This document shows, piece by piece, positions 1 through 40,527 of a stretch of DNA of 42,850 bases. The number at the start of each line of letters is the position of its first letter. Position 1 is the first letter of the stretch. Origin of the DNA: a virus; IMG/VR virus record IMGVR_UViG_3300047564_002615, positions 1-42,850 of that record; one strand, written 5' to 3'. A model generated the notes under the pieces. That model did no database searches. It saw only the letters and a program-made list of their open reading frames with translations, and had not been told where the DNA came from. The position numbers and the translations under genes are program-made.

Positions 1-647
1 TCGCTTTGAGGCTTTAGCGTTACGTTTATGCCTTGCTCATGGAAGAATAATGCATTGTCCCAGTCACGTTCAAACCATTCAGGTACCATAACCATGTTGA
101 TAGTAACTTGAACATCGTGTTCTTGACATAGTATTAGTTTGTCTGCAAAGTCCTGCATCTTTGCTGTTGTATCTAAATGCTCAGTATGCAAACTTGCTGT
201 AATGCTTGCTCTGTGAAACGGCTTTGCATAATCTACGTATGTTTCAAACCATTTCATAGGTCGAGAACAGTTTGATGTCATGTGTATGCTAGTATAATTG
301 GTATTAGGCGTATCGTCTGCTAGATACTTTAGAATATCTAAGTAACCTGGATGGAATGTAGGTTCACCTCCACTTAACGAAAAGTGGAAACTATTGAATC
401 CATTGTCACGTGCTTGTCGTTTTATTTCGTCGATGGTTTTGAGACATAACTCTGTAGGTCTATGATCTTTTTTGTCGGATCTTGCATATGGCCAACAGTA
501 GCTACATCTGTAGTTGCAGAATCTGCCGAGGAGCCAAGATACAGTAAATATGTCTCTATATAAGAGTGTCCGCTGTCCGACTTGAACAATTTCGTCAAAC
601 GGGATTTTGGTAAAATCATAGTTGCTCCATTTTAAATCTTCAGTCAT
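1..647 (-). CDS. Radical SAM protein, 3'-truncated by window edge
   Basis: Open frame from an ATG at 647 that runs off the left edge without a stop, so only about 215 N-terminal residues are visible. Residues 44-51 read CNYRCSYC, the CX3CX2C motif that binds the SAM-cleaving [4Fe-4S] cluster. An SGGEPTF motif about 50 residues later is the GGE motif that contacts SAM. The opening resembles the CNxxCxYC proteins at 37576-38463 and 38451-39485, which have a Cys-rich C-terminal cluster domain. The same domain may lie beyond the edge here. A consensus sigma70-type promoter sits immediately upstream (653-681), so it can be transcribed separately from the gene at 696-1772. Substrate unknown. Confidence 0.88.
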   Translation of the reverse strand, partial: MTEDLKWSNYDFTKIPFDEIVQVGQRTLLYRDIFTVSWLLGRFCNYRCSYCWPYARSDKKDHRPTELCLKTIDEIKRQARDNGFNSFHFSLSGGEPTFHPGYLDILKYLADDTPNTNYTSIHMTSNCSRPMKWFETYVDYAKPFHRASITASLHTEHLDTTAKMQDFADKLILCQEHDVQVTINMVMVPEWFERDWDNALFFHEQGINVTLKPQS

Positions 648-695: not shown

Positions 696-1772
696 TTATA
701 TATCTACTTGTAAGTTTTGTTCTGCTTCTCTTTTTACTATGCCGCAGGTTCTAATACAACGAGGAATAACATTGCTACTAGTCCAACTTTTTAAAAGATC
801 TTTAAAAAACTGATGTGCTAAAACTTGACTCCACGATTGTTCTTTTAAATTTAGCTGGCCAATAGGATACTTTAATTCTGCGTGTGACATAGTTTTAAAA
901 GTTTCGTATTGGTCGCTAATATAACAACATGGAAAAACTTCCATTCTACTATTGATATACATTTTTTGAGATTCTCGGTATATACATTCAATTTTCCAAT
1001 CGGTGTTTGGCAACGGTTTATCTGCATATCTGAAATCTTCTAATGTATTAAAATCGTTTTTATGATCTGTCTTCACCTGTTGTAAAAATTCAGTCATCTC
1101 TTTTAGACTAGGATGTCTATATTCAGGATCTAGTGGCGGTTCTAAATAGTGCGTAACATTACCTTCTGCATCTAACACAGGATATGGATTAAATCTGTCA
1201 AATCTCGGTGTACGTCTAAATCTAAAATTATCTACTCCTAATTCTTTTGCAAGTGCTTTACTGCTTTCCATTTCATGTTCGTTATGTTTAAACACAAGAA
1301 AGTCCCACCGTGTTCTTACAGGACTATCACAAACAATCTTTAGATGCTTCAGTATTTTGTTTACATCAGTGTTTTGCCTATAAAGATGATTTGTTTCAAT
1401 TCCATCAATACCAAAAGTAATTCTATCTCCACTGTCAAGGATGTCAACAAAACGTTTCCACCAACTTTCAGTTTTAAGACTGCCATTGGTAAACATTTCA
1501 ATCTGAGCACCGGCATCTTTTGCTGCTTTTACTGCTTCAAACACATTTTTTGCTGCAATAGGATCGCCGTGAGTTCCACAAAAATAAACAAATTTTAAGT
1601 TAGGTAGGTCTCTGAATGCTTTAGAAACATCAGTTAAATTCCATTCGGCAAGACCCCTTCCGGGATTAGCCAGACCTCCAAATTGATTTCTATCGCACAT
1701 AGGACATGCAGCATTGCACTTGTTTGTAATTTCAACGTGCAACTCACGTATACTATCAGGTTCTAAAAACAT
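696..1772 (-). CDS. Radical SAM/SPASM-type protein (CPMC group)
   Basis: 358 residues. C19-x3-C23-x2-C26 (CNAACPMC) near the N terminus is the rSAM cluster motif, and CGTHGDP takes the place of the GGEP motif. The C-terminal region has a Cys pattern expected for an auxiliary Fe-S (SPASM/twitch) domain: ECIYRES, then FPCC, then CIRTCG. It is a paralogue of 9990-11051, 12469-13548 and 39442-40488, sharing the FDGIE/GLxxxNHLYR region and a C-terminal PCC...CG layout. SPASM rSAM enzymes usually modify peptides or proteins; the substrate here is not evident. The start at 1772 faces the divergent gene at 1833 across 60 bp. Confidence 0.88.
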   Translation of the reverse strand: MFLEPDSIRELHVEITNKCNAACPMCDRNQFGGLANPGRGLAEWNLTDVSKAFRDLPNLKFVYFCGTHGDPIAAKNVFEAVKAAKDAGAQIEMFTNGSLKTESWWKRFVDILDSGDRITFGIDGIETNHLYRQNTDVNKILKHLKIVCDSPVRTRWDFLVFKHNEHEMESSKALAKELGVDNFRFRRTPRFDRFNPYPVLDAEGNVTHYLEPPLDPEYRHPSLKEMTEFLQQVKTDHKNDFNTLEDFRYADKPLPNTDWKIECIYRESQKMYINSRMEVFPCCYISDQYETFKTMSHAELKYPIGQLNLKEQSWSQVLAHQFFKDLLKSWTSSNVIPRCIRTCGIVKREAEQNLQVDI

Positions 1773-1832: not shown

Positions 1833-3347
1833 ATGACAGATATTGTGTTTTTAACACTGCCGCGACTGGAACTTAGGGCACCTATAACAGCCCCTGCAAT
1901 ACTAAAGGCCATGGTAGAACAGCATGGGTTTAGTGCATTTTGTTATGACTTGAATTTAGATCTTTGGCATAGTATTGACACAGAAAAGCACGGACATGTT
2001 TGGTTTGATACTGACTTAACTTTTAGATACGAAGATAAGTTTGAAGAATTTTGGAATGAACATATCGAGCCATGTGTTCCAAAATGGCTAGCAACTATAC
2101 AAAGTAAAAATCCTAAATGGATAGGCATAACAATTTTTAGTCAGCGTAGCAAATGGGTTACAATCCGCATTTGTAAAATGTTTAGAGAAAAGTTACCAAA
2201 TGTAAAGATTGTTGTAGGCGGACCTTTTGCCGAGTTCACTGGCCCTAGCTTGTACAAAAATAATCTAACCGATGCATATGTTATCGGCGAAGGTGAAGAA
2301 GCTATTGTTAATATATTAAACGGAAACCTAAACGCACCCGGTATAAATGGTATTCCGCCTAGTCAAATAAATGACTTAGATACAATTCCTATTCCCGACT
2401 ATAGCGATTTTCCAATGGACAAATATCCGAGTACTTGGTTTGACCCTAGAATAAAGGACAAAACCAAGATGGGCACTGAATTTGTTTACATAACTGGCAG
2501 CCGCGGCTGTGTACGCAAATGTACTTTTTGTGATATTCAAAGCGTATGGCCAAAATTTAGGTATCGCAGTGGTAAAAGTGTTGCAGAAGAAATGCAAACA
2601 CAAAACAATGCTTATGGTAGTAAAAGATTTTTGTTTACAGACAGTTTGCTTAATGGTAGTGTAAAGCAACTAAAAGATATTTGTACTACACTTATTGATT
2701 ATAAAGACAAAGGTACAATGTCGCCTGTTCTGTGGCAAGGACAGTTTATAGCACGACCAGAACATCAGATGAAAGAAGATGTTTACAGGTTAATGTATGA
2801 AGCAGGATTAAGATTTGTAAGTATCGGTGTAGAAAGTGGAAGCGAAAAGATACGTGACGATATGCGTAAAATGTTCAACGATGAAGCTATGGACTTTACT
2901 TTTCGCATGTGTGCAAAATATAAAATAGAAATGGCATGGTTATTGCTTGTAGGCTATCCTACCGAAACTGAAGAAGAGTTCCAAAAAACTCTAGACATGT
3001 TGGAAAAATATAATTGGATTAATCAACAAGGGCTAATACGTAGTGTTGCACTTGGGCCAACGCTAGATATTGTTCCAGGATCTCCTTTGTGGAATAAACA
3101 GAAAGAACTCGGAATCACTTGGGACCAGAACGATCATTGGATATATAAAGATAATACACGAGAAGTTAGAATACGTAGGTGGCTAACACTCAAAGAAAAA
3201 TGTTTAGAACTAAACTACCCTATTGTTGAAAAAGCTACCGATCATTTACTAGCAGAGTTAGAAAAAATTACAGCACAAAAACAACAAACTGTACATATTT
3301 ATGATCATTACAATGAAGGTGCAGGAGCGATGGGGCCAAGCGTATGA
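1833..3347 (+). CDS. Class-B-type radical SAM protein with N-terminal B12-binding-like domain
   Basis: 504 residues. The first ~190 residues have the Rossmann-like layout of cobalamin-binding domains of class-B rSAM enzymes (MTDIVFLTLP opening, KIVVGGPFAEF, YVIGEGEEA). No DxHxxG cobalamin-ligating motif is visible, as in many members. The rSAM motif is C226-x3-C230-x2-C233 (CVRKCTFC), followed by the later strands of the SAM barrel (VSIGVESGSE, LLVGYPTETEEE). The family includes methyltransferases, methylthiotransferases and ring-forming enzymes; the reaction here is not predictable. It heads a six-gene plus-strand operon and overlaps the next gene by 4 bases (ATGA). Confidence 0.85.
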   Translation: MTDIVFLTLPRLELRAPITAPAILKAMVEQHGFSAFCYDLNLDLWHSIDTEKHGHVWFDTDLTFRYEDKFEEFWNEHIEPCVPKWLATIQSKNPKWIGITIFSQRSKWVTIRICKMFREKLPNVKIVVGGPFAEFTGPSLYKNNLTDAYVIGEGEEAIVNILNGNLNAPGINGIPPSQINDLDTIPIPDYSDFPMDKYPSTWFDPRIKDKTKMGTEFVYITGSRGCVRKCTFCDIQSVWPKFRYRSGKSVAEEMQTQNNAYGSKRFLFTDSLLNGSVKQLKDICTTLIDYKDKGTMSPVLWQGQFIARPEHQMKEDVYRLMYEAGLRFVSIGVESGSEKIRDDMRKMFNDEAMDFTFRMCAKYKIEMAWLLLVGYPTETEEEFQKTLDMLEKYNWINQQGLIRSVALGPTLDIVPGSPLWNKQKELGITWDQNDHWIYKDNTREVRIRRWLTLKEKCLELNYPIVEKATDHLLAELEKITAQKQQTVHIYDHYNEGAGAMGPSV

Positions 3348-3973: not shown

Positions 3974-4692
3974 TGAACCAATCTACAATAATATTAGAAA
4001 ATCATTTTAATTCTGAAGATTTGGAATATCTCCGTAAATTGAAAGCGATATGCAAAGAAGATCCTAACTCAATTAGATCAAGATTGTCTTTACAAAAAAG
4101 AAGTAACAAACTATATGTATGCAGTAATAAAACTATTGTAAATCACAATGATATAGCAAAATGGATAAACGAGCGTTTGCCGTTTGAAAACAAAGACGAA
4201 TACGAATTTCAATCCATTAACTTTTACGAAATACAAGTTCCTTTCGGCATGCATTCAGATACTAGTGCTGACCAAAAATATTTTTATCAAGGCATAATAC
4301 CGTTAGGCGTGGATCCTGCTGACAAGGATGCTTATACTCTTATTTTCGACCAAACATCCGAAGAGAATGTAGAATGGATTCATCCTATATACGAAAAACC
4401 AGATGATTATAAACCGTTTTTTAATAAACCTGTTAGAGATCCATATTATTTTGATAACTGGAAACCAGATTATAAACTTTCAGACGAGGATTGCAAAAAA
4501 TGGTTTGGCAATCATTGGAAATATTGGCAAACTGCCTACGAAGGATTTACTGTACACACCGAATACAAGTGGAACATAGGCGATTTATTTTTGTTTGATA
4601 GCAGACATATGCACTGTGCTACCGCTCTCGAAGAGAAAGGTATTAATTCAAAAGAAGGATTGCTTTTCATCCTAAAAAAGAAAGATGTGTAA
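3973..4692 (+). CDS. 2OG-Fe(II) oxygenase-like protein
   Basis: 239 residues. H94-x-D96 (GMHSDT) and the distal H212/H214 (FDSRHMHCA) give the iron-binding triad of cupin-type dioxygenases; the FQGIIPLGVD and GDLFLFDSRHMH strands fit the jelly roll. A long acidic and aromatic insert lies between the two halves. The TAATG overlap with the previous gene and TAATG with the next imply translational coupling. Similarity to 3344-3973 is limited to the motif layout, so the two may act on different positions or substrates. Confidence 0.65.
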   Translation: MNQSTIILENHFNSEDLEYLRKLKAICKEDPNSIRSRLSLQKRSNKLYVCSNKTIVNHNDIAKWINERLPFENKDEYEFQSINFYEIQVPFGMHSDTSADQKYFYQGIIPLGVDPADKDAYTLIFDQTSEENVEWIHPIYEKPDDYKPFFNKPVRDPYYFDNWKPDYKLSDEDCKKWFGNHWKYWQTAYEGFTVHTEYKWNIGDLFLFDSRHMHCATALEEKGINSKEGLLFILKKKDV

Positions 4693-5519
4693 TGTTTAAA
4701 CATTTAGATACGTTAACTTATATTACTAAATTAAATAGAACATATTCAACTGCTTCTGCAAATACAGGAGCAGGAGAATTATCAATAGTAAATTATTCCT
4801 ATACAGATGTAGATAAAATTGAAATTGGTATACCATTAGGTGACAAACCTGTTGCAGTGTTTATATCCGGCGGGCCTGATAGTGCTATAACAACATATTT
4901 GGTAGTAAAAACAATCAAAGACTTAGGATTCAACAATCCTGTTTATCCGATTACTACAGAGTTTATGGCAAGGCCGTATAATATAAGACATGCATGGAAT
5001 GTATTAAATAAAATCGAAGAATTACTGGATTTTAAATTTGCACAGCATCTTATATTTCCTATGCCTAATCATGCATTAAAAATAAGCGACGAAGATAAAA
5101 AAGTAATAATGTCTAAAAATATAGACGAGTACTTTAATCGTTATCAAATTTATACATTGTTCAACGGATTAACTGCAAACCCACCAGATGATGCTATAGT
5201 GGATACAATTTATGCACAACGCCAAGCTGAACGTAATAGCGTTGATGCTGTATTACAAAAACTAAAACAAAGTTATAATCAATATCCGTTGTTGTTTTCT
5301 CATAAACAAATAGCAGCATACTTTTTTGAAAAATTTGATTTACTAGAATCTCTATTTCCATTAACAAGAAGTTGCGAAGCAGAACTCGAAGAATCACATT
5401 ATTTTACTAAAACATGTTTCGAAATAAGACATGCTGAGCAGTTGTGTTGGTGGTGTCAAGAACGTAAATGGGGATTCAATCATTATCGTCCTGCTGATTT
5501 TATACAAAAGGTGAAATAA
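4692..5519 (+). CDS. QueC-like PP-loop ATPase
   Basis: 275 residues. SGGPDSA at 59-65 is the PP-loop that binds ATP in the adenine nucleotide alpha-hydrolase superfamily. The C terminus reads RSCE...TKTC...LCWWCQERKWGF, close in layout to the Zn-binding tail of 7-cyano-7-deazaguanine synthase QueC (SC...CGxCxxCxxR). One of the expected Cys is displaced: the sibling at 5519 has CGSCWWC, this one only LCWWC, with an extra upstream C that may compensate. QueC adenylates a carboxylate and turns it into a nitrile. A relative could activate a different carboxylate. No QueD, QueE or FolE is seen in the window. Confidence 0.75.
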   Translation: MFKHLDTLTYITKLNRTYSTASANTGAGELSIVNYSYTDVDKIEIGIPLGDKPVAVFISGGPDSAITTYLVVKTIKDLGFNNPVYPITTEFMARPYNIRHAWNVLNKIEELLDFKFAQHLIFPMPNHALKISDEDKKVIMSKNIDEYFNRYQIYTLFNGLTANPPDDAIVDTIYAQRQAERNSVDAVLQKLKQSYNQYPLLFSHKQIAAYFFEKFDLLESLFPLTRSCEAELEESHYFTKTCFEIRHAEQLCWWCQERKWGFNHYRPADFIQKVK

Positions 5520-6313
5520 TGCTTACAAGACAAATAGCAAATTCAAACGAAACAGCTGAAATATACGCAGATATAGAAATCAAATTTACAGCCGACAGCG
5601 GATCTAGTACAATTGTTCCATTAGGAAAAGATTGGAACACAGTTGGCATACAATTATCAGGCGGCTTAGACAGTGCTTTACTTTTATACCTAACTACAAA
5701 GGCTATACAAGAATCCGGATTTAATATTTGCATACAACCAATTAGTGTGTTTATTCCTACTAAGGCAAAAAATATTGTTGCTACAGAAGCTATTATTAAA
5801 AAAGTTAAAGAATTAACTGGTGCCAATTTTATTAATGATGGATTAGTTTTCAATATGTCGATTTCTGATACAAGCACTAATGATGGTAAAAAAGATAGAT
5901 TTTTTGACTCTACTATTTTAAAACTGTTTGAAGATAGAGTAATAGATTTTGAATATAACGGTAACACAAAAAATCCGCCGGAGCATATTAGAAAACACTT
6001 TCGTTATGATCAGTATAGACAAAAAAATAGAGACAATGCTGAATCTATATACAATAATCCTTATGGTGCCAGTCCGCACTACAACATGGATAAAAAAGAT
6101 ATTGTAAATCTATATGTTAAACACAATCTTATAGAAGAACTAGCACCGTTAACGCTTTCGTGTGACGAGGATGTCGATATAGTTTACGCAAACAAATTAA
6201 ATGTACCATGCGGATCATGCTGGTGGTGTGAGGAACGCAAGTGGGGATTTAGTTCTAACAATGTAAAAGACCCTGCACCTATACTAACTTTTGAAGAATA
6301 CAAGAATCTGTAA
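5519..6313 (+). CDS. QueC-like PP-loop ATPase
   Basis: 264 residues, tandem paralogue of the preceding gene. The PP-loop is SGGLDSA (47-53). The C-terminal zinc-site pattern is complete: LSCDED then CGSCWWCEERKWGF. The shared KNPPEHI / ANPPDDA segment and the CWWCxERKWGF tail tie it to 4692-5519 and to 34831-35526. Its start overlaps the previous stop (TAATG), and the next gene begins one base after its stop. ATP-dependent activation of a carboxylate or amide is the family chemistry; the substrate is unknown. Confidence 0.78.
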   Translation: MLTRQIANSNETAEIYADIEIKFTADSGSSTIVPLGKDWNTVGIQLSGGLDSALLLYLTTKAIQESGFNICIQPISVFIPTKAKNIVATEAIIKKVKELTGANFINDGLVFNMSISDTSTNDGKKDRFFDSTILKLFEDRVIDFEYNGNTKNPPEHIRKHFRYDQYRQKNRDNAESIYNNPYGASPHYNMDKKDIVNLYVKHNLIEELAPLTLSCDEDVDIVYANKLNVPCGSCWWCEERKWGFSSNNVKDPAPILTFEEYKNL

Positions 6314-6314
6314 T

Positions 6315-7496
6315 ATGGACATACCCAGTAAAACATTTTGCAGTATGGCATGGGATCATCAATTTATCGATCCTACAGGCAGAGTAAAACCGTGTTGTAG
6401 ATTTGCAGAAAAATACAGGCCCAATGAGAACAATCTTAAAGAAAAAACTTTGAGCGAAGTTTTTTACGGGGGCTGGATGAATGATGTTCGCGATAAAATG
6501 ATGCGTGGCGAACAAGTAAACGGGTGTATTCGTTGCTACCAAGAAGAAGCCGCTGGCAAACGCAGTCTGCGTGAACGCTATCACGATAGCAAGGAGTTAC
6601 CGATTGATCAGTTAGTTGATTTAGATAATCCAAAGATTAGATGGATCGAACTTGCTATTAGCAATGACTGTAACTTAGCATGTCGCATGTGTGACAGTCG
6701 CTATTCTTGGAAATGGTTCAAAGAAGAACAAGCTATATTTGGCACTACTTATAATACTGTTGAAAAAAGTAAAAGTGATATATCAAATATCTATCCATTT
6801 ATAAACGATCTTGTACATATTAAATTCACTGGTGGAGAACCGTTGATGACCAAGGATCAATGGGCATTAGTGGATAAAATGTTAGCCGAACGTGATTGCA
6901 GTGATATACTTTTAAATTATAGCACCAATTGTACTATTATGCCCAAAGACAACTGGATAAAAAAATGGAGTAAATTTAAACAGGTAGAATTTGCTTTAAG
7001 CTTTGATAGTTCAAATAAAGACGAAAGTGAGTATATACGTTGGCCAGCAAAGTATGAAACAACAGAAGCTGTTACTAAAAGGTTTTTAGAACTTAAACAA
7101 AGTCATGGATTTCACGTGTTTTTACGCAGCACAATTAGTTTGTTAAACGTTTGGCATATGCCAGAAAGTATGCAATGGTGGGCAGAGCATGACCAAGGAG
7201 TGCAGATTATGAATCCTACGCACTTGACTTATCCGGAAATCCTTTGTGTTACTGTATTACCGGCACACATTAAAAAACGTGTTACAGAAAAGTTTGACAA
7301 TTATATTTTAAATTCAAGTAACGAAAAAATAAACAAAAGTCTTGAATATATAAGAAACTTTATGAATAGCAAGGATGATAGTTACTTATTGCCGCAACTA
7401 AAAACTTATTTAGAGGGCACTGACAAATATAGAGAGCAAGATTTTTTTAAGTCTTATCCTCAATTTTTAGATCTATTTTTTCACTTAGATAGTTAA
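6315..7496 (+). CDS. N-terminal-twitch radical SAM protein
   Basis: 393 residues, starting at the ATG one base after the upstream stop. An upstream in-frame start at 6291 would overlap that gene and add eight residues ahead of the conserved KTFC opening. A Cys-rich N-terminal domain (C9, C27-C28, C71-x2-C74) with WxxxVRDKMMRGE and EEAAGKRSLR resembles a twitch/SPASM Fe-S domain placed before the core. The rSAM motif follows at C119-x3-C123-x2-C126 (CNLACRMC), and TGGEPLM is the SAM-contact motif. One of seven such proteins in the window. The 3' end overlaps the convergent gene by 50 bases. Confidence 0.88.
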   Translation: MDIPSKTFCSMAWDHQFIDPTGRVKPCCRFAEKYRPNENNLKEKTLSEVFYGGWMNDVRDKMMRGEQVNGCIRCYQEEAAGKRSLRERYHDSKELPIDQLVDLDNPKIRWIELAISNDCNLACRMCDSRYSWKWFKEEQAIFGTTYNTVEKSKSDISNIYPFINDLVHIKFTGGEPLMTKDQWALVDKMLAERDCSDILLNYSTNCTIMPKDNWIKKWSKFKQVEFALSFDSSNKDESEYIRWPAKYETTEAVTKRFLELKQSHGFHVFLRSTISLLNVWHMPESMQWWAEHDQGVQIMNPTHLTYPEILCVTVLPAHIKKRVTEKFDNYILNSSNEKINKSLEYIRNFMNSKDDSYLLPQLKTYLEGTDKYREQDFFKSYPQFLDLFFHLDS

Positions 7497-8667
7497 AAAG
7501 TTCTGGAGTGACATCTTTAAAATGTATACCACGTTCAAGTGTAAAATAATTTAGTGCATCAACTGTTAAGGGTACTTTGTCAACTTTGGTTCCAATATGT
7601 TTTTTGAAATTGTTTAAATTAAAAATTACCTCATCTAAGTTTGCTATTACATCATGTTTATCAGACATGTATTCAATACATTTGTCAATATAAACTAAAA
7701 ACCTTTTGTCTAAGACATCAATAGATAATGCATCGGGTTGATATACAATGTTAGCACTTATGTAAACTCCATTTGTATTGTACTTTTTACACAAATCAAT
7801 AAAAAATTTAAAATAAGATAATGTATCAACAATAGACACACAGTTTATAGACATGTTTGTCGATATGGTAAAGCCTGCTGCAAACCATGTATTTAAATTA
7901 TCAACATATTGTTTATAACTGCTTCCATGTCTTACATATTCGTAATTTTTTCCTGTGCTTTCTCCACTGACTGAGATGTACACATGTAGATTTTTATAAG
8001 TTTTTTTATAATCTCCGAGTTGCTTTATTATTTTTTGTAATAGATTAGTAGGAGTATTGCAATTTGTTTGCAGCCCTATTGTTAAACTTTTATCGTGGTT
8101 GGTATTCTTATAAAAGCTAGTAATACATAATTCTAAAAGATTTTTTTTATTAACAGTAGTCAACATAGGCTCTCCTCCTAATAATACTATTTCAGTTATT
8201 TTATTATCAGGTTGTGTGTTTCCGACGCTAGTTATATAATCAAATATTTTTTCAGAATTATTATTTTTTATATTCGTGTTTTTATTTGAACAAGAAAAAT
8301 TTGGGGGCGTGTGTTTTGTAGTTTTCAATTCTGCTAACCATTGACTGCTATATTGTGCATTACAATAGATGCATTTACTATCACATGTATTATCAAAAAA
8401 TAATTCTATTTTTTTATAGATATCAAGTTTGTAAAATTTATAGAATTCGTTTCCAAGTTGTCTCCAACTTTTGGCATTTGCCTTTTCAGTATCCCAACAG
8501 ATATTGCATTCACGTATACGTCTACCTTTAGTTAAAGCTTTTTCTGCTTTTTTTAGTTCTTTGCTGCCTATCTGATTTATATGAGCCATTTTACAGCAAA
8601 GAGACTCTGTATTTTGTAAGTTGTCAAAAATTCTTTCAATGGAAGACCTTTTGCAGAAATTACTCAT
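7447..8667 (-). CDS. N-terminal-twitch radical SAM protein, divergent member
   Basis: 406 residues from the ATG at 8667, chosen because MSNFC aligns with the opening of the sibling proteins and the start overlaps the upstream stop by 8 bases. A longer frame to 8736 would only read through the neighbour. C5, C24-C25 and C54-x2-C57 mark the N-terminal cluster domain, although the segment is short and lacks the usual PW/G features. The rSAM motif is C95-x3-C99-x2-C102 (CDSKCIYC), and LGGEPML follows. Lys/Asn-rich and more divergent than 8660-10000. Last gene of the long minus operon that starts at 19238. Confidence 0.82.
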   Translation of the reverse strand: MSNFCKRSSIERIFDNLQNTESLCCKMAHINQIGSKELKKAEKALTKGRRIRECNICWDTEKANAKSWRQLGNEFYKFYKLDIYKKIELFFDNTCDSKCIYCNAQYSSQWLAELKTTKHTPPNFSCSNKNTNIKNNNSEKIFDYITSVGNTQPDNKITEIVLLGGEPMLTTVNKKNLLELCITSFYKNTNHDKSLTIGLQTNCNTPTNLLQKIIKQLGDYKKTYKNLHVYISVSGESTGKNYEYVRHGSSYKQYVDNLNTWFAAGFTISTNMSINCVSIVDTLSYFKFFIDLCKKYNTNGVYISANIVYQPDALSIDVLDKRFLVYIDKCIEYMSDKHDVIANLDEVIFNLNNFKKHIGTKVDKVPLTVDALNYFTLERGIHFKDVTPELFNYLSEKIDLKIEDKT

Positions 8668-10000
8668 ATTTGTATCCCAATAATAACTCCCATGTTTTAG
8701 GACAAACATCTTTGAGATTTTCTTTGCGGCTTGCATCTAATGTACGAGTATAATGCCAAAATTTGTCTAAATAATTGCTATAGTCCTCAGCCCACATATA
8801 TTTGATATAGCTATCTAGTATTTTACAAAAGTGTTTGCGATTTAAACTATCTTGAATTTCTGTTTCGGCACGAGTTTTCCACTCTTCAAAATAGTTTTCA
8901 ATCCACTGTTTGCTTTCTTTTGGAAATACTTTAATGTTTAAAAATCTAGGACTGTGAAGAGGATGAGGACTTATAACACTTTTATGTTTTACATCAACAT
9001 TTATGCGTTTAAAGTTTTGTTGTATTTTCCACATCATCATTTCGGGCAAATGCACTAAGTTGTATGCTTGTATTGTTGCAGCCCACCAAATCTTAAATTC
9101 ACCTTCTGCTGCATCTAGTTTACGCATGTTCTCTTCAATCTTACGCCATTTGCTAGGATTGCGTATGTAATCGTTAATCGGTCCAACAGCATCAACACTC
9201 ATGCCTATTTGTACACGTTGGAAGTGTTTCCAAATATTCCATGCACGTTCCGGTATGTTAGTAATATTAGTATTGTATTCGATTACAATTTTATCTGCTC
9301 TGTTTGCATCAATACATTTCTGTAAAAATTCATAGTGCTGATCAATCATCAAAGGCTCGCCGCCTACAATATACAACCGTTCTACAACAGGAATCTGTTT
9401 TTCTAAATCAATCCAAAAATCTTTGCTTTTATACCAACTGTAAATATCAACATCTGGTTCATGTTTTCCTTTGGCATTTTTTACTAATTTTATTTTTTGA
9501 CCGCTATCAGTATATTGCGGACCCCAAAGTTTTACTGTATCTTCGTACCACATGTTACTGTCTGTCGGTCCGCACATGCGACATTTTAAATTACACAGGT
9601 TTCCAAAACGCAAATCCATATATTTTATAGGATTTTTTTCTACTTCTATAGTACCGTCAATATCAGTCAAGCACTTAGAAGATTCCTCAGTTAAAACATG
9701 TTCCCAAATTGTACGTTCCCAGTCTGCTCTGCTTTCCATTCCGCTTTCGGCTTCACGTTTGCAACGCACACAGCTATCATGATATTCTCCTTTAAGCATA
9801 CTCAATCTAATTTCTTTCATTAGATCTGCATTTCTAAAATCATGTATGCTGTCTTTGCCTAAATTATAATACGATCCGTCAGACTTGCTTACAAGACCTT
9901 GGTTGACACTCACGTTTGCATTACAGCAAACTCGTACATCTCCGTTGTTTCTCACATTTAATCCAAGCCAAGGAAGCGGACACCATGCTCTATTTGACAT
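8660..10000 (-). CDS. N-terminal-twitch radical SAM protein
   Basis: 446 residues. The N-terminal domain has C7 (WCPLPW), C25-C26 (VRVCC) and C77-x2-C80 (CVRCKREAESG), followed by DLRFGNLCNLKCRMCG with the rSAM motif C136-x3-C140-x2-C143. IVGGEPLM is the SAM-contact motif, and YNTNITNIPERAW covers the next strand. Resembles 11051-12460 more closely than the other N-twitch proteins. The start overlaps the upstream rSAM by 11 bases and its stop overlaps the following start by 8 bases, so three rSAM genes are translationally linked. Confidence 0.9.
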   Translation of the reverse strand: MSNRAWCPLPWLGLNVRNNGDVRVCCNANVSVNQGLVSKSDGSYYNLGKDSIHDFRNADLMKEIRLSMLKGEYHDSCVRCKREAESGMESRADWERTIWEHVLTEESSKCLTDIDGTIEVEKNPIKYMDLRFGNLCNLKCRMCGPTDSNMWYEDTVKLWGPQYTDSGQKIKLVKNAKGKHEPDVDIYSWYKSKDFWIDLEKQIPVVERLYIVGGEPLMIDQHYEFLQKCIDANRADKIVIEYNTNITNIPERAWNIWKHFQRVQIGMSVDAVGPINDYIRNPSKWRKIEENMRKLDAAEGEFKIWWAATIQAYNLVHLPEMMMWKIQQNFKRINVDVKHKSVISPHPLHSPRFLNIKVFPKESKQWIENYFEEWKTRAETEIQDSLNRKHFCKILDSYIKYMWAEDYSNYLDKFWHYTRTLDASRKENLKDVCPKTWELLLGYKYE

Positions 10001-11051
10001 CTAATATCTCACTTTTAATATTTTTTCCGTGGCCGCTGCTAAATTCAAATTTATCTCCGCATGTTCTACCACAAGTGTAAATTCTTTTAAATTTACTGTC
10101 TTGATTGTTCCAACTTTTATCTAAGTATTGTTGAAAAAAATCATGTTCAAAAACACGCCAGCCATGTTTACGCATGTCGTTAAAATCTTTACCATACAAT
10201 TTAAATAGATGATCAAAACTTGCAGTTTGTTGAGTTGATTTATGAAAATACGTAGGAGCACCTAACCAACAACAAGGCCATAATTTCATACACATATCAA
10301 CAAAAACAGTTTGATCTCGTTGATATTTACAAGTAATAGTAGTGTTTTCTACATATGTGTCAAAACTATTATACGTTTTACGTATATCTATTTTATCTTG
10401 TGTATTTTGATTAGCTTTTTCTTCTACAACATTACCTTTTCGGGTTTCTTGCAATTTTTGATCTTGATCCGCAAAACGTGCTGTATATTTTGCAGTAAAT
10501 TTTGCAAAACCCATGTTCTTGGCTAGTTGTTCTGCTTGTTCTATTTGATGATAATTGTGTTGAAATTCTATAAATGCCCACTCTGCATAACCACCGGCAT
10601 CGATATATGCTCGAGCATTTTCCATAATCTTGTTAAACTGACTACCAACACGATACAGATGATTTGTATCTTCTAGTCCATCTATGCTAAAAATGACGCT
10701 TAGTTTGTTGCCACCTTTTTTTGCTAATTCACTCCACCAATCGGGTGTACGCATACTGCCATTAGTAGCAATACGTATTTTTTTAGCACGAGTTAAGCTG
10801 TAATCATATGTTTCGTCCCAAGTAGGACTTACTAAAGCATCACCATAATTTCCACAATGAAACAATGTAATTTTATTATCGTCAAATGGTTCGAGTAAGA
10901 TTTTGTAATCGTCTACAGTAAGATCGGCAATAGGCATACTAGGATTAACAATTTTGCCATCGACTACTCTAGCACATTGTGGACACATACAGTTACATCT
11001 ACTTGTGTGATCAATCTGTATACGGTTAATGTCTGTAATATTCAAATACAT
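9990..11051 (-). CDS. Radical SAM/SPASM-type protein (CPQC variant)
   Basis: 353 residues. The rSAM motif is C19-x3-C23-x2-C26 (CNCMCPQC), with an additional Cys at position 21. CGNYGDA stands for the GGE motif. The C-terminal auxiliary cluster region shows TCKYQRD, a WPCCW pair and YTCGRTCGDKF. It is a paralogue of 696-1772, 12469-13548 and 39442-40488 and sits between two N-twitch rSAM genes. Start and upstream stop share one base (TAATG). The alternation of the two rSAM types along this operon suggests pairs that may act in sequence; this is inferred from order only. Confidence 0.87.
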   Translation of the reverse strand: MYLNITDINRIQIDHTSRCNCMCPQCARVVDGKIVNPSMPIADLTVDDYKILLEPFDDNKITLFHCGNYGDALVSPTWDETYDYSLTRAKKIRIATNGSMRTPDWWSELAKKGGNKLSVIFSIDGLEDTNHLYRVGSQFNKIMENARAYIDAGGYAEWAFIEFQHNYHQIEQAEQLAKNMGFAKFTAKYTARFADQDQKLQETRKGNVVEEKANQNTQDKIDIRKTYNSFDTYVENTTITCKYQRDQTVFVDMCMKLWPCCWLGAPTYFHKSTQQTASFDHLFKLYGKDFNDMRKHGWRVFEHDFFQQYLDKSWNNQDSKFKRIYTCGRTCGDKFEFSSGHGKNIKSEILDVK

Positions 11052-12460
11052 TAGACTAAACCTTTTAGTAAAGGAAATACTTCTCCAAACTTAGTTTCCC
11101 AGCCTCTTTGTTTATTAATTAGTTGTAGGTATTCTTTAGTTTCCGGTAATCTTGCACTCCAATCTTCTGCATTCATAAACTTTATAATACCTTTAAATCT
11201 TTTTAAACCATAAGATGCATTTAAAAATTCTTCTTTGCTGATTCCTGCTTCTTTTACACCTGTAAATTTTTGCCAATTGTCTTCCATCCAAGGATAGAAC
11301 TCATTTTCATATTTTTCTGTAACCTGTTGTTTGATATCTTTAGGCAAAACTTTGACATTTAATTGCGGAGGCCAATAAGCAAAGTGCATGTTGATACCTC
11401 CAGCACCAAATGGCCAAGCATTTATTTTTTTAAACCTTTGATTAACTTTCCATTGCACAAATTCAGGAATATAAGGAACGTTTAAAGCCATTAGGGTTGT
11501 AGCGGTTGTAACTTCTACTTGAGGTGCAGTGTTATCTAACTTATAAAAAACTTCTTCTTGATGTTCCCATACACTAGGGTAACGTATATAATTGTTCTGT
11601 TCACTATATGCATCAATACTATAATGAAATCTTACACGTTTAAATTCTGCCCAAAGATCAAACAAATCATCACGCCACTCTACTGCATTACTATTGTACC
11701 GCAGTTCAATTTTGTTAGCGTAACCACGTTTGATACATTCTTCTAAGAGGTCATAGTGTTCGTCAATAATTAAGCTTTCACCTCCAGCAAAATATAATTG
11801 ATATAAATTAGGAACTTGTTCAAACAGCTCTTGCCAAAACCTTGGGTTGTTTTTATGCCAATTGTAACTAGCCCCATGCACTCTGCCTTTGTTTTCCCAT
11901 TGGCTGGTGGACTTTAGTTTTTCGTTTTGCATCTGTGGATAAATTGAATTCCACTCTTTTACCCATCCACTACTGTCATGAGGACTGCACATTACACAAG
12001 CAAGTTGACATTTTGTGCCCATACGTAGATCTATATATCTTATCTTTGTAGGAATACTTCCATCTTCTTGTGTTTCTGCAACTAACTGTTCAAGGTCGTA
12101 TCTGGCACCCCAATATTCTGTTTCCCAGTTACGCTTACTTAAATGACCTGCTGCTTCTTCTTTATAGCACTTTAAGCAACTTGCTGGCTGCTCTCCACGT
12201 AACATCATATTACGAACATTACGCATGTAAGAACTGTTCCATGCATCTGCTAATGTTGTATGGTTAAAGTTAGCAGGAATACCATCGTCATTTTTTACAA
12301 CGCCAACTTCTCCCCCACCCACTTTTTTATTTGAATCCGGATCTTGTACACTACTAGCATTACTAGTACAACAAGTACGCATTTTACCATCTGGACGACT
12401 GCTCAAATGCAGCCATGGTAATGCACAAAATGTAGGAGAAATTTTATCTGATACTGACAT
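11051..12460 (-). CDS. N-terminal-twitch radical SAM protein, long form
   Basis: 469 residues, the longest N-twitch member. C12 (TFCALPW), C30-C31 (RTCC) and C95-x2-C98 (CLKCYKEEAAG) make the N-terminal cluster domain. A Gly/Asp-rich insertion of about 25 residues follows the CC pair (centred on residues 40-60). The rSAM motif is C151-x3-C155-x2-C158 (CQLACVMC). The SAM-contact motif is AGGESLI, with Ser where the siblings have Pro. An 8-bp gap separates it from the upstream gene, one of the few non-overlapping junctions in this operon. Confidence 0.9.
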   Translation of the reverse strand: MSVSDKISPTFCALPWLHLSSRPDGKMRTCCTSNASSVQDPDSNKKVGGGEVGVVKNDDGIPANFNHTTLADAWNSSYMRNVRNMMLRGEQPASCLKCYKEEAAGHLSKRNWETEYWGARYDLEQLVAETQEDGSIPTKIRYIDLRMGTKCQLACVMCSPHDSSGWVKEWNSIYPQMQNEKLKSTSQWENKGRVHGASYNWHKNNPRFWQELFEQVPNLYQLYFAGGESLIIDEHYDLLEECIKRGYANKIELRYNSNAVEWRDDLFDLWAEFKRVRFHYSIDAYSEQNNYIRYPSVWEHQEEVFYKLDNTAPQVEVTTATTLMALNVPYIPEFVQWKVNQRFKKINAWPFGAGGINMHFAYWPPQLNVKVLPKDIKQQVTEKYENEFYPWMEDNWQKFTGVKEAGISKEEFLNASYGLKRFKGIIKFMNAEDWSARLPETKEYLQLINKQRGWETKFGEVFPLLKGLV

Positions 12461-12468
12461 GCTACTAC

Positions 12469-13548
12469 TTATTTAAATTGTTCTGCAAAAGGATCAAATT
12501 CGACACCGCACTTCATAGCACACACTTTTAATCTTCCAGTTTCATAACTATTTTCTTGCCACGAGTCTTCTATTAGATCAAAAATTTCTGTTTCAAATAC
12601 ACGCTCTAATCCATGAAGTTTAGCATTTATTGCATCTTTTCCTCCAGCAAAGTCTATGAATTTCCATATCAGTTCTGTTTTTGGATCTTTATTCCACCAT
12701 TTATACATACGACCAGCTGTCCAGCAGCAAGGTAATGCTAAACCTTCTGCTGTAATAAACAGACTTCCTTCGTCTTTTACTTTGCATCGAATAGGGGTTT
12801 GCTGATAGTATGCATCCATACTGCCATATTTAATTTCTAACAATGATTGTTTTTTTAATGCACTGTTAACGTATTTGTCATCGGGTTTTTTTAGTTCAGC
12901 AGTTTGATTTCCTTTGCGATCCATTGCTTGGTGAGATTGTTTAGCTTGAGAATCGGATGTTACAAATCTTCCTGTTTTTTTAGCAACAAATTTTTCAAAT
13001 CCCCAATCGTTAGCTATTTTTTCTGCTTCTTCTATTTGATGTTGATTATGTTCAAAAATTAAAAAATCCCATCGTGCTCTGCCCCCTGCACTAACGAACG
13101 CTTTCATACTGCGTTCTACAGCATCCCAATTAACGCCTTGTCTATATATGTGATTGGTATCACGCAACCCATCTACACTAAAAATAACAGTTCCCATTCT
13201 GCCATATATTTTTGCAAGTTCTTGCCACCACGTTTCATCTCTTGCTCCTGCATTTGTATTCATGCTTAACCACATGTTAGGGTTATGCTCTCTAAAATAC
13301 TTAAAAATTTCCAAGGTGTCTCGTGCAACAATAGGATCGCCCAAATTGCCACACATATACATTGTTTTTAGTTGTTTTATAAAATTGGGTTCGAATATTT
13401 TTTTACAATCTTCGAGTGTTAACTCATCTAAATTTATGTGAGGATTTAATGCACCGCCGTTTTGATTGCGATCACACATAGGACAACTTGCTTGACAATT
13501 TTGTGTAACTTCTAAGTGAATTGTTTTTATATCTTTATATTCATACAT
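12469..13548 (-). CDS. Radical SAM/SPASM-type protein (CPMC group)
   Basis: 359 residues. The rSAM motif C18-x3-C22-x2-C25 (CQASCPMC) is followed by CGNLGDP and FSVDGLRDTNHIYR, shared with 696-1772 and 39442-40488. The C-terminal cluster region has RCKVKDEG, ALPCCW and VCAMKCG. An insertion rich in Lys/Gln (residues ~200-235) separates core and C-terminal domain. Its start overlaps the stop of the small gene 13541-13765 by 8 bases (ATGTATGA), so the small protein and this rSAM are translationally coupled. Confidence 0.88.
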   Translation of the reverse strand: MYEYKDIKTIHLEVTQNCQASCPMCDRNQNGGALNPHINLDELTLEDCKKIFEPNFIKQLKTMYMCGNLGDPIVARDTLEIFKYFREHNPNMWLSMNTNAGARDETWWQELAKIYGRMGTVIFSVDGLRDTNHIYRQGVNWDAVERSMKAFVSAGGRARWDFLIFEHNQHQIEEAEKIANDWGFEKFVAKKTGRFVTSDSQAKQSHQAMDRKGNQTAELKKPDDKYVNSALKKQSLLEIKYGSMDAYYQQTPIRCKVKDEGSLFITAEGLALPCCWTAGRMYKWWNKDPKTELIWKFIDFAGGKDAINAKLHGLERVFETEIFDLIEDSWQENSYETGRLKVCAMKCGVEFDPFAEQFK

Positions 13549-13765
13549 TGTAAATTAACTTTACGTCCTTTCCAGGTCCTGTTTTGCTAGGTAAATCGCC
13601 ATGTTGTTCAACATACCAAATTATAACTGCTCGATACCAATTTTGACTATTGTGATGAGCTGCTTTGTTAAACTGCCAAATATTATTATTAGTAGCTTCC
13701 ATAGTAGTTAGTGCCCTTGCACTTTCCTTTTGCAATTCTCGTAAACTTAACTTATCTAAATCCAA
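13541..13765 (-). CDS. Small uncharacterised protein with TTG start
   Basis: 74 residues from a TTG at 13765, which overlaps the upstream stop by 14 bases; no earlier ATG exists in frame and the first internal Met is at residue 22. It is charged, with an N-terminal helix (LSLRELQKESARA) and an aromatic middle (NWYRAVIIWYVEQHG). No Cys and no leader/core layout. I do not recognise a family. Its place between a methyltransferase-like gene and an rSAM/SPASM gene makes it one of only two small proteins that could be a substrate or carrier for the tailoring enzymes, but nothing in the sequence proves this. Confidence 0.6.
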   Translation of the reverse strand: MDLDKLSLRELQKESARALTTMEATNNNIWQFNKAAHHNSQNWYRAVIIWYVEQHGDLPSKTGPGKDVKLIYNV

Positions 13766-14678
13766 TTTTCATAAACCTTTTATATTTAGGCAACTCTAAT
13801 TTGCCTTCGTAAAGAACAGTAGTCATTGGAGCACTTGCACTAAATTCTTCTAATGTATTGTAAGTATTTACGTGTTCTTCGACTTCGTGGTAATCGTTTG
13901 CTTGTATTACAACTAATTTACCAGTTGGTATTTTGCTATACCATACTATAAAATCATTTAAATGTTCACAACTGGTATTGATAACAGTATCTGGACTATC
14001 TACAATTTCACTTTCAGACCCATCCGATCTTAACGTTTTATAACAATAATAGTCGTAATCTATATCCATAATATTTTTTGTAGTTGCTTTAAATTTCCAG
14101 TTATCCACTAACCAAGGTTTATTAAAAATTTCCGCAATACTTGCACAACTAGAATCAATGTCAAAGCTACGAATTTTATCTACTTTGATTTTGCTTTCGA
14201 ACAACATTGTAGCTAAAGTACCATACCATCCAGCACACAAAAACACTGTGCCTAAATCTACGTCACACTTTTTTAGTTGTTCAACTAACCATAATTTACT
14301 TTGAAGTTGTCCTCTACTAAAACAATCGGGGTCAATTTTTATATTGTTAACAAAAAAGTTTTTAAATGCAGCAACAAACTGTGTATCAACATATCTTTCA
14401 AGAATAGGCCATAGTTTCCATACATTGTCTTCGATAACTAATTTACGTAAATCTTCGTCATCAACAAGTCTAAAGATACTGTGTAGATTTTTTTCTAACA
14501 CTGCTTTTCGTAAATCGTCGATATCACCAGATACTGTATTAGGCAATAATCTAAAAATACTGGTTAAATCACGATCGATATAAGATCTACGTAAGTCAGA
14601 TAGTTTTGTATTATATGGATACAGTAATTCAAATCTGTCTAACAATTCGTATATTTGCATTATATTTTTAAATTCCAT
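13752..14678 (-). CDS. Methyltransferase-like protein with N-terminal short repeats
   Basis: 308 residues. Residues ~25-95 hold three degenerate repeats built on DLR(R/K)xxxxxxLxSIFRL. The C-terminal part has a nucleotide-binding-like VFLCAGWYGTLATML segment, an acidic RSFDIDSS strand end and VINTSCEHLNDF, in the order of class I SAM-dependent methyltransferase motifs I, II and IV. The assignment rests on this order and is tentative. The start at 14678 overlaps the upstream gene by 19 bases; an ATG at 14660 would give the TAATG junction common here, removing six residues. Confidence 0.6.
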   Translation of the reverse strand: MEFKNIMQIYELLDRFELLYPYNTKLSDLRRSYIDRDLTSIFRLLPNTVSGDIDDLRKAVLEKNLHSIFRLVDDEDLRKLVIEDNVWKLWPILERYVDTQFVAAFKNFFVNNIKIDPDCFSRGQLQSKLWLVEQLKKCDVDLGTVFLCAGWYGTLATMLFESKIKVDKIRSFDIDSSCASIAEIFNKPWLVDNWKFKATTKNIMDIDYDYYCYKTLRSDGSESEIVDSPDTVINTSCEHLNDFIVWYSKIPTGKLVVIQANDYHEVEEHVNTYNTLEEFSASAPMTTVLYEGKLELPKYKRFMKIGFR

Positions 14679-15373
14679 TGTTTATTAGTATAACATGCAT
14701 AACAAATACTGTCAACGTACAACTTATTATCTTCTAGTTTGTACTCTCTTGGAGGATTAGCTAGGGTAGGTTTTGCATAAAAATCGTTGTGGTCATTTAA
14801 CTCTTTAAATACGGTGTTTTTTGCAACATCTCTATATACTCTTGGCGAATCAGATAATTTAGTGTTGTCTATTGCAAATTTCATTCCTATAACACTTTTT
14901 TCAAAAATTTGGTTAGGTTCTACTAAATCTAACCATTTGTGCTTTTGTTTAAACTTGTTTGTGTGATCTGTAATCACAAGAGGAATTTTTTCTTTATAAA
15001 CGTCCGCAAGAAGTATACGAGTTGTTCCTGGATGAACTCCATACCTACCTTTTCCAAACCAACTCATACTCATTGGTGTCGTAATACCTGTTCCACAACG
15101 TATGTCATCAATAATTTTAGAAATTGCGTTTATCTTGCCTATGTGACCATCATTTAGCCAAGGATCGCTACTGTAAACTACATGAGAAGAAAAAAATAGA
15201 TTATCAATTAAATGTTTCAAGTAATTATAGATATTTCTATTTACAAAATTATCATTGATTTCTTTTAACGTAAGATAAGTGATATAGGTTTTTGTTTGAT
15301 AGAAACTGTCAAATTGATTAGCTAAATCGACAAATTGTTGGTAAGTTTCTATAGGTAAAACTTGTAAGTCCAT
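14660..15373 (-). CDS. Uncharacterised protein with ParB/sulfiredoxin-like motif
   Basis: 237 residues. The only motif I recognise is GRYGVHPGTTRILL (109-122) followed by PLVITD, which resembles the G-x-H-R-type loop of ParB/sulfiredoxin-fold proteins (HPGxxRxxA...VPVxI). The C terminus has a CYAC pair. The rest is helical and unassigned. If the fold is right, nucleotide binding or hydrolysis would be expected. It sits between an rSAM/SPASM gene and the methyltransferase-like gene, with a one-base overlap (TAATG) at its start. Confidence 0.5.
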   Translation of the reverse strand: MDLQVLPIETYQQFVDLANQFDSFYQTKTYITYLTLKEINDNFVNRNIYNYLKHLIDNLFFSSHVVYSSDPWLNDGHIGKINAISKIIDDIRCGTGITTPMSMSWFGKGRYGVHPGTTRILLADVYKEKIPLVITDHTNKFKQKHKWLDLVEPNQIFEKSVIGMKFAIDNTKLSDSPRVYRDVAKNTVFKELNDHNDFYAKPTLANPPREYKLEDNKLYVDSICYACYTNKQWNLKI

Positions 15374-16344
15374 TATTGCTTAACCTTTAATTCAGTTCCA
15401 AGCATTTGACCTACTTTTGCTGTAGGACTGTTACTCCATATTAATACTTCGGCATCGTCGTAGAGAAAATCGCAGTCCTTGCAGTATGGTATTTCGTCAA
15501 ATCTACCCTGTTCATGCAACTCTCTCAAACGGTTGTATTTTTCTCCCCAATAGATATCTTCAAAACTTTGTGAGTCAAAGTGTCCTAGAACACTTGCACT
15601 TTCAGTAGGAGGACCTAGAACTTGGCAACAAGGTGTTACTGCTGCACGATGTCCATTTATGCCGCCTGCTCTTACAGTAAGTTCATCGGCTTCAGGTCTA
15701 CCGCAGGTTCTACGTTTACCTAGTCTAGTATAATTTGGTTTATAGTTTCCACTCCAGTTGTGCATTTTCCATATATATGCTTCTGTACCTATCGGAAAAA
15801 TAAAGTTTTGCTGATATTGATTTACTTCATACTGTACCCGATTAGGATCTAAAATTAAATGGTAACTGTCTAATCTACATTTGCTTGATGTTCGAGCAAT
15901 ATAATCTCTGGTATCACAAGCATACTGATATATCATGTCCCAATTATCTACATTCATCCATTGCTTGTACATTTCTCTATTATAGCCTATAACACTAAAA
16001 CGAAACAGACTCAATCCAGCATCTATGCTGTCACGCATTAGATCTCCGGTAAAATTACTGCCGTTACTATAGATATAACTACGTAATCCTCTGCGTGTAC
16101 ATGCTTCAATATATTTAGGTAGATCTTTATTCATTGTAGGTTCGCCAGAGCCTTCTAAGTTTATAAGAGGCGTGCCGTATTTAGGCGTAACTTGATCAAG
16201 AATATTTTCAAACTGTTCAAGAGGCATAATTCGCAGAAAATGTTTTTCTCTACCGGGAGAAGTCTGTGGACACATTTTACATGTGTAATTGCATCCGCCA
16301 AATATTTCTATCACTACACGTTGTAAATTTATTTTGTTTTCCAT
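15373..16344 (-). CDS. Radical SAM/SPASM protein
   Basis: 323 residues. C18-x3-C22-x2-C25 (CNYTCKMC) begins the core, with EGSGEPT as the SAM-contact motif and YSNGSN on the next strand. The C-terminal Cys set (RRTCGR, TPCCQ, YCKDCDF) fits an auxiliary-cluster SPASM domain. It is closer to ordinary SPASM proteins than the CPMC group and has no other close paralogue in the window. It overlaps the preceding 969-aa gene by 16 bases and shares one base with the next gene. Confidence 0.9.
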   Translation of the reverse strand: MENKINLQRVVIEIFGGCNYTCKMCPQTSPGREKHFLRIMPLEQFENILDQVTPKYGTPLINLEGSGEPTMNKDLPKYIEACTRRGLRSYIYSNGSNFTGDLMRDSIDAGLSLFRFSVIGYNREMYKQWMNVDNWDMIYQYACDTRDYIARTSSKCRLDSYHLILDPNRVQYEVNQYQQNFIFPIGTEAYIWKMHNWSGNYKPNYTRLGKRRTCGRPEADELTVRAGGINGHRAAVTPCCQVLGPPTESASVLGHFDSQSFEDIYWGEKYNRLRELHEQGRFDEIPYCKDCDFLYDDAEVLIWSNSPTAKVGQMLGTELKVKQ

Positions 16345-32349: not shown

Positions 32350-32352
32350 ACA

Positions 32353-40522: not shown

Positions 40523-40527
40523 TTGTT

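Follow-up and report, generated by a model that had tools for sequence, protein, structure and literature searches.

Radical SAM proteins with a twitch domain ahead of the core in a marine phage gene island and in Bdellovibrionota

The IMG/VR virus record IMGVR_UViG_3300047564_002615 (positions 1-42,850, a stretch of 42,850 nucleotides that is referred to here as the window) encodes seven radical S-adenosylmethionine (SAM) proteins that are members of a known, chemically uncharacterised family, NF033640 (N_Twi_rSAM), in which a twitch domain precedes the radical SAM core. Twitch and SPASM domains are usually described as C-terminal extensions. To judge from the alignment with BtrN, each of the seven most likely binds one auxiliary cluster that is fully ligated by Cys and of the twitch/AuxI type. 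Part of the surrounding gene set is, by sequence comparison, common to T4-type jumbo marine phages and to Bdellovibrionota chromosomes. The explanation that we favour, with some reservation, is that these proteins are oxidative radical enzymes in an undescribed tailoring pathway, with the twitch domain fused before the core.

Identity of the seven N_Twi proteins

In hmmscan searches against NCBIfam, NF033640 was the top match for all seven proteins, which confirms the family name given in an initial annotation of this DNA. Scored over the full model, six were above the curated cut-off of 170 bits (226-408 bits), whereas 7447-8736 failed it (140 bits). A chance match can be ruled out, as the E-values ranged from 1e-40 to 1e-122. 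All seven open reading frames are present at the places given by the initial annotation, although only 6315, 28544 and 35513 are start codons, while 7447, 8660, 11051 and 24868 are the low-coordinate ends of minus-strand genes. The interval assigned to the group, 6315-12460, contains four of the genes, and the other three lie outside it. The seven are as follows.

6315..7496, plus strand: N_Twi radical SAM protein (307 bits); 13 further phage contigs encode relatives (42-86%, mostly 72-86%), as does a Bdellovibrionia chromosome (57%)
7447..8736, minus strand: divergent N_Twi radical SAM protein (140 bits, under the cut-off of 170); phage G001 has an orthologue (40%)
8660..10000, minus strand: N_Twi radical SAM protein (362 bits); orthologues in other phages (73%) and Bdellovibrionota (42-43%)
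11051..12460, minus strand: N_Twi radical SAM protein, the most conserved of the seven (408 bits); more than 80 relatives in viral contigs (69-100%), Bdellovibrionota relatives at 56-60%
24868..26010, minus strand: N_Twi radical SAM protein (247 bits); no close orthologue found
28544..29674, plus strand: N_Twi radical SAM protein (226 bits); in the tree, a distant sister of 24868-26010
35513..36778, plus strand: N_Twi radical SAM protein (316 bits); placed by NF033640 and the tree

Matches to PF04055 were found in all seven, marginally under the Pfam cut-off in 11051-12460 and 28544-29674, and the CX3CX2C and GGE motifs are invariant across the seven-way alignment. PF13186 (SPASM) precedes Radical_SAM in four proteins (6315-7496, 8660-10000, 11051-12460 and 35513-36778); three of these matches pass the Pfam cut-off and that of 8660-10000 falls narrowly short (21.2 versus 21.5). 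The N-terminal pattern C...CC...CxxC, described initially as common to the group, is indeed invariant in its Cys, but the accompanying EAxG segment is not, as 7447-8736 carries EKANAKSWR where the others have EAxGxxSxR. In total, 17 window proteins longer than 200 residues contain CX3CX2C, 10 of which are not N_Twi. No open literature on NF033640 or on N-terminal twitch domains was found.

The twitch domain and its cysteines

A profile built from the seven proteins and searched against PDB sequences (hmmsearch) matched BtrN (4M7S/4M7T) in swapped order, with a whole-sequence E-value of about 2e-6. Query residues 12-79 aligned to BtrN residues 167-237 (4M7S), its C-terminal twitch domain, and residues 108-133 to BtrN 24-49, the SAM-cluster motif, the latter stretch being weak alone. 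As the BtrN segments match in reversed order, the N-terminal part represents a twitch domain placed before the core. Together with the order of the Pfam domains in four of the proteins, this bears out the proposal that an auxiliary-cluster domain precedes the core.

In the numbering of protein 11051-12460, C12, C30, C31, C95, C98, C151, C155 and C158 are invariant in the seven-way alignment. Among 86 diverse relatives, C12, C30, C95, C98 and the three core Cys were among the invariant residues. In 432 full-length relatives, C12, C95 and C98 were invariant apart from gaps and C151, C155 and C158 essentially invariant; C30 was conserved in at least 96%, compared with about 91% for C31. The only conserved Cys outside the core in relatives were C12, C30, C95, C98 and, mostly, C31. 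The N-terminal Cys had all been proposed as a ligand set, which holds for these first four and less well for the second Cys of the CC pair. The exact C-x17-C spacing occurs in 391 of the 432 relatives, and both the C-x17-C and the CxxC spacing are identical to those of the matched BtrN segment. Four Cys thus align with those of a solved twitch domain, and these we take, from the published BtrN structure, to be the ligands of its auxiliary cluster. The assignment of ligands by BtrN homology appears to be new, as far as this analysis shows.

The auxiliary cluster of BtrN has been grouped with AuxI as an electron acceptor, while that of MoaA has three Cys ligands and an open Fe site (PMC9012708). 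Four Cys ligands, unlike the three and open site of MoaA, therefore fit an electron acceptor. The initial annotation had equated the N-terminal cluster with AuxII of SPASM enzymes. This was rejected, as the segment aligns with the twitch domain of BtrN, which has a single auxiliary cluster, and the extra Cys expected for AuxII (CX2CX5CX3C plus a final Cys) were not found among the conserved residues.

Predicted structure and proposed mechanism

An AlphaFold2 model of 11051-12460, computed using 86 sequences, had a predicted local distance difference test score (pLDDT) of 92.1 and a predicted template modelling score (pTM) of 0.91. In the model, a beta-hairpin (residues 18-28) separates the first two Cys, and the CxxC motif lies on a helix (residues 93-103). 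The top folds in a Foldseek search against the PDB were SkfB, CteB, anSME and SuiB, with template modelling scores of about 0.3. Such low scores are expected, because an order-dependent comparison was applied to a rearranged protein.

In the mechanism that we propose, the four N-terminal Cys would hold one [4Fe-4S] cluster. The core would reduce SAM to yield a 5'-deoxyadenosyl radical, this radical would abstract a substrate hydrogen, and the leftover electron would pass to the twitch cluster. The net outcome would be a two-electron oxidation, either a dehydrogenation or a cross-link, of the sort that BtrN and SuiB carry out. Each paralogue would most likely carry out a different step in one tailoring pathway. 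Likely partners would be C-twitch and B12 radical SAM enzymes, QueC-like PP-loop enzymes and 2-oxoglutarate oxygenases, along with glycosyltransferase-like and methyltransferase-like proteins.

Host virus and age of the paralogues

The 76,827-base record G012 is near-identical to the window (99.96% over the tested 2,797-base overlap), encodes a 100% identical 11051-12460 protein and continues the window into a structural-gene block collinear with the 330-kb contig G001. The terminases of G001 and of Pseudomonas jumbo phage PA5oct share 52% identity, and T4-type polymerase, portal, capsid and sheath genes were assigned in G001 by reading. Judged by the collinearity of the structural block, the window belongs to a large uncultured marine phage, a T4-type jumbo phage. 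Over the 77-kb record, this virus has 11 N_Twi genes (7 in the window plus 4) and 25 radical SAM proteins longer than 200 residues (17 plus 8) in about 66 kb.

In a tree of 72 proteins, obtained with a quick method and with some branches weak, the paralogues were interleaved with bacterial N_Twi proteins. The 11051-, 8660-, 6315- and 7447-types each had their own orthologues in other phages, and the sole sister pair was 24868-26010 and 28544-29674, with branches of about 1.1. Nonsynonymous divergence (dN) among orthologues of 11051-12460, 8660-10000 and 6315-7496 was 0.10-0.20, with synonymous divergence (dS) saturated or near-saturated. By tree and substitution pattern, the seven are old separate lineages, under strong purifying selection where orthologues exist. 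Recent tandem duplication was considered and rejected, as only one pair are sisters and their branches are long.

N_Twi genes over the cut-off were present in all 18 large viral contigs examined, usually many per contig. Isolated phages, in contrast, are almost devoid of them (3 records with a weak match), and no near DNA matches to the window were found in isolated phages. The initial view that seven paralogues in one window are unusual is therefore correct relative to isolated phages, but such numbers are normal for this uncultured phage group and for Bdellovibrionota. Of the 18 related viral contigs, 3 carry an A-type Fe-S carrier gene and 3, all of one lineage, a SAM synthetase gene; these genes suggest that the phages may support such enzymes. 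One SAM synthetase gene lies at G001 31860-32954 (L090:11860-12954), G001 being a jumbo phage with a radical SAM island.

Shared genes in Bdellovibrionota and other cellular genomes

When genome contigs were searched with alignment A2, the best cellular matches to N_Twi were mostly from Bdellovibrionota, followed by Bacteroidota and some alphaproteobacteria; a genome-contig search with the 6315-7496 protein alone gave no match. In the Bdellovibrionia genome G019, 13 N_Twi genes are packed into 29 kb. Another Bdellovibrionia genome, G021, has relatives of nine window genes within C15 636-665 kb, at 41-64% identity to the closest phage copy: the 11051-type (57%), 12469-type (49%), 3-647 type (64%), 16329-type (41%), 13752-type (44%), 5519-type (42%), 8660-type (43%), 1833-type (64%) and 6315-type (57%). 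In Halobacteriovoraceae, the 11051-, 12469- and 3-647 types stand side by side (58, 44 and 63%). The sharing of this gene set with Bdellovibrionota points to an undescribed multi-step chemical pathway. The shared module appears to be unreported so far, and no descriptions of N_Twi arrays in phages or Bdellovibrionota were found in the literature.

Oxygenases of the PF05118 family occur in few copies in most of these genomes, often within or adjoining N_Twi arrays. Copies inside or next to arrays numbered two of three in G019 and two of three in G029, genomes that look closely related and hence are not independent, and one of one in both G023 and G021 (within 4 kb in the latter). This link was not seen in G022, G024 or G026-G028 among the matches listed. 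In the named strain Poseidonocella sedimentorum (L148:6583-20165), an N_Twi gene lies in a natural-product cluster, beside genes for an acyl carrier protein, a polyketide synthase and an NDP-hexose 2,3-dehydratase.

Conserved core module and sm74

The conserved core comprises N_Twi, C-twitch radical SAM, methyltransferase-like and glycosyltransferase-like genes, to which sm74, a gene missed by the initial annotation, is added in phages. The recurrent gene order in phages is methyltransferase-like, sm74, C-twitch radical SAM and N_Twi. Besides 11051-12460, the module in the window consists of the following.

12469..13548, minus strand: radical SAM protein, the constant partner of 11051-12460, whose C-terminal Cys are twitch-like (C-x18-CC ... 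CxxxC); Bdellovibrionota relatives at 44-50%
13541..13765, minus strand: sm74, 74 residues, TTG start, highly conserved; overlaps both neighbours; all-helical prediction (pLDDT 92.8)
13752..14678, minus strand: methyltransferase-like protein, assigned by sequence motifs only, with neither Pfam nor PDB match; conserved partner in phages and Bdellovibrionota
16329..19238, minus strand: 969-residue repeat-containing protein; its C-terminal domain is glycosyltransferase-A-like, has a DGDA motif and matches GT2 only weakly

Relatives of 16329-19238 were found near 11051-type N_Twi genes in three Bdellovibrionota genomes. Several degenerate repeats of this protein look like units that have lost the DGDA motif. 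PDB profile searches with the glycosyltransferase-like and methyltransferase-like proteins returned nothing useful, and both assignments therefore stay "-like".

A search seeded by sm74, which avoids the N_Twi seed, found 495 viral stretches encoding it. Among the best 80 of these, all have the methyltransferase-like gene, and 55 have full flanks; of these 55, the C-twitch gene is present in 54, and in 42 an N_Twi gene lies no more than 4 kb away. No similar fold was found for sm74 in PDB or BFVD, and it was absent from 50,697 phage records and had no PHROG match. Among the cellular loci searched, sm74 was detected only in four contigs of metagenome-assembled genomes (MAGs), which are probably phage DNA. 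These contigs (L127, L129, L139 and L173), from Rickettsiales, Neisseriaceae and Gammaproteobacteria MAGs, carry the phage core genes together with sm74 and are probably misbinned. They were left out as proof of cellular sharing, for which the genomes behind L153, L134, L137 and L145 were used.

Other window genes and mobility of the auxiliary domain

The remaining genes of interest in the window are listed below.

3..647, minus strand: radical SAM protein, truncated at the window end; 93% in phage G001, 63-64% adjoining an 11051-type gene in Bdellovibrionota
696..1772, minus strand: radical SAM protein with C-terminal twitch-like Cys (Cys pattern)
1833..3347, plus strand: B12-binding radical SAM protein; 80% in phage G001, whose orthologue is 64% identical to a Bdellovibrionia protein
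4692..5519, plus strand: PP-loop (QueC-like) ATPase (motif)
5519..6313, plus strand: QueC-like PP-loop protein; 42% in a Bdellovibrionia island
9990..11051, minus strand: radical SAM protein with C-terminal twitch-like Cys (Cys pattern)
15373..16344, minus strand: radical SAM protein with ordinary C-terminal SPASM domain (PF13186 at residues 235-292)
21113..23026, minus strand: B12-binding-like radical SAM protein
31471..32349, minus strand: cold-shock domain (PF00313, 28.1 bits) fused to 2-oxoglutarate-Fe(II) oxygenase (PF13640, 45.4 bits)
34831..35526, plus strand: QueC-like PP-loop protein (under the Pfam cut-off)
37576..38463, plus strand: radical SAM protein with fused C-terminal Cys domain, a separate gene in other phages and Bdellovibrionota
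38403..39485, plus strand: radical SAM protein
39442..40488, minus strand: radical SAM protein with C-terminal twitch-like Cys (Cys pattern)
40501..41274, plus strand: Asp/Asn-hydroxylase-like 2-oxoglutarate oxygenase (PF05118, the one clear case in the window); relatives inside bacterial N_Twi arrays
42417..42850, minus strand: radical SAM protein of 360 residues, C-terminal part only, the rest lying beyond the window end; the 77-kb record has all of it

The best PHROG label of 31471-32349, DNA endonuclease, is probably a misannotation. The adjacent, related small proteins 32353-32895 and 32895-33479 have no Pfam match and resemble 2-oxoglutarate oxygenases. The three QueC-like PP-loop proteins (4692-6313 and 34831-35526) have a QueC-type Cys cluster; other queuosine genes were not recognised in the window.

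Within the same N_Twi arrays, there are cases in which a separate, overlapping gene right after a core-only radical SAM gene encodes the auxiliary domain; these were seen in four phage contigs and in two to three genomes of Bdellovibrionota. Examples with an overlap of a few bases are L024:12920-14030, L060:11798-12872 and L134:7550-8655, while the corresponding window gene, 37576-38463, is fused. In the Bdellovibrionia genome G019 (C1 772475-773584; L208:17475-18584), an auxiliary-like gene directly precedes a core-only radical SAM gene, and the counterpart in phage G013 has the reverse order. As fused forms of both orders as well as split forms were observed, auxiliary domains occur before, after or apart from the core. 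A separate auxiliary polypeptide would presumably work in trans.

Weighing of the explanations

Several points weigh against the favoured explanation of oxidative enzymes in one tailoring pathway. No NF033640 member with a tested reaction was found in the literature. The electron-accepting role of the twitch cluster would follow by analogy, and the notion of one pathway is suggested by clustering and co-conservation. Moreover, 24868-26010, 28544-29674, 35513-36778 and most of the 2-oxoglutarate oxygenases have no close relatives in the compared phages, so that part of the island is variable cargo, and lone N_Twi genes occur outside clusters in Bacteroidota (L158).

Two alternatives are substrate branches of this explanation, roughly equally supported and each held only tentatively. 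In the first, a ribosomal substrate (sm74 or a virion protein) would be matured by the radical enzymes together with Asp/Asn- and prolyl-hydroxylase-like oxygenases. The nearest folds, SkfB, CteB, anSME and SuiB, are peptide or protein modifiers, and the island adjoins structural genes. Furthermore, sm74 is the only conserved small protein and lies between the methyltransferase-like and C-twitch genes, with the neighbours counted above. However, sm74 is predicted to be a fully folded, helical protein without Cys, unlike a leader-core peptide, and it was not found in the cellular loci that keep N_Twi and C-twitch genes. None of the scanned proteins showed a match to a PqqD-like domain of the kind that recognises ribosomally synthesized and post-translationally modified peptides (RiPP recognition element, RRE). 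Given its predicted fold, sm74 was judged unlikely to be a classic RiPP precursor.

In the second branch, BtrN- or SpeY-like dehydrogenases would tailor a small molecule or sugar, such as a nucleotide-, sugar- or polyketide-linked metabolite or a surface glycan. The best twitch match, BtrN, is an aminocyclitol dehydrogenase, and the glycosyltransferase-like gene accompanies the 11051-type in both phages and bacteria. Related islands hold carbamoyltransferase and, by reading, amidinotransferase-like genes, and the setting of the Poseidonocella N_Twi gene is of the same tenor. Yet the glycosyltransferase assignment is weak, a complete sugar pathway is not present in the window, and the core and fold matches lean towards peptide enzymes.

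It seems improbable that the role of the twitch cluster is to bind and position the substrate, as the cluster of MoaA does, in redox-neutral reactions; MoaA is among the family matches, but the three ligands of its cluster differ from the four conserved here. Even less probable is a system, related to 7-deazaguanine synthesis, that hypermodifies nucleotides or DNA, as suggested by the three QueC-like proteins. Equivalents of QueD or FolE were not recognised in the window, a QueC-like gene is also present in the Bdellovibrionia island, in a cell rather than a phage, and a single base would hardly call for so many different radical SAM enzymes. A view of the paralogues as decaying or selfish copies that lack functions of their own is hardly credible: the variable cargo differs among related phages, but the open frames, invariant catalytic residues, low dN and old separate lineages already contradict it.

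Beyond the favoured explanation, it is conceivable, if doubtful, that an undescribed pathway is common to phages and Bdellovibrionota, that its radical SAM enzymes, at least a dozen in number and with auxiliary domains that can be exchanged, make one complex product, and that the phages took this up and retained it for infection. If so, these domains would be exchanged as fusions before the core, as fusions after it or as separate polypeptides.

Comparison with known systems

In 2017, the 183-kb T4-like genome of a marine virus, TARA_ERS488813_N000010, was reported to carry 12 genes for radical SAM proteins as well as one for an A-type Fe-S carrier (PMC5332604). Radical SAM richness in such phages is therefore not new; the section of that report consulted does not describe the domain order or the sharing with Bdellovibrionota. 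What appears to be new, as far as this analysis shows, is how large the arrays are, the protein sm74 and the gene set common to the phages and Bdellovibrionota. In view of this sharing with Bdellovibrionota, one may ask why a jumbo phage would carry about 25 oxygen-sensitive enzymes.

Among known families, NF033640 itself, with its N-terminal twitch domain and radical SAM core, matches six window proteins over their whole length above the cut-off, the difference being the sub-cut-off 7447-8736. The arrays supply ready orthologous enzymes, some from possibly cultivable bacteria, with which a first NF033640 substrate could be sought. The SPASM/twitch peptide maturases SkfB, CteB, anSME and SuiB, the best PDB folds for the 11051-12460 model, have their auxiliary domain at the C terminus, and neither an RRE nor a precursor peptide was recognised in the window. 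BtrN and twitch dehydrogenases such as SpeY have a homologous twitch domain with the same C-x17-C and CxxC, and one auxiliary cluster is expected; their domain order is reversed relative to the window proteins. A large reverse-order family with ligands that match those of BtrN thus offers a direct test of whether the job of an auxiliary cluster depends on domain order.

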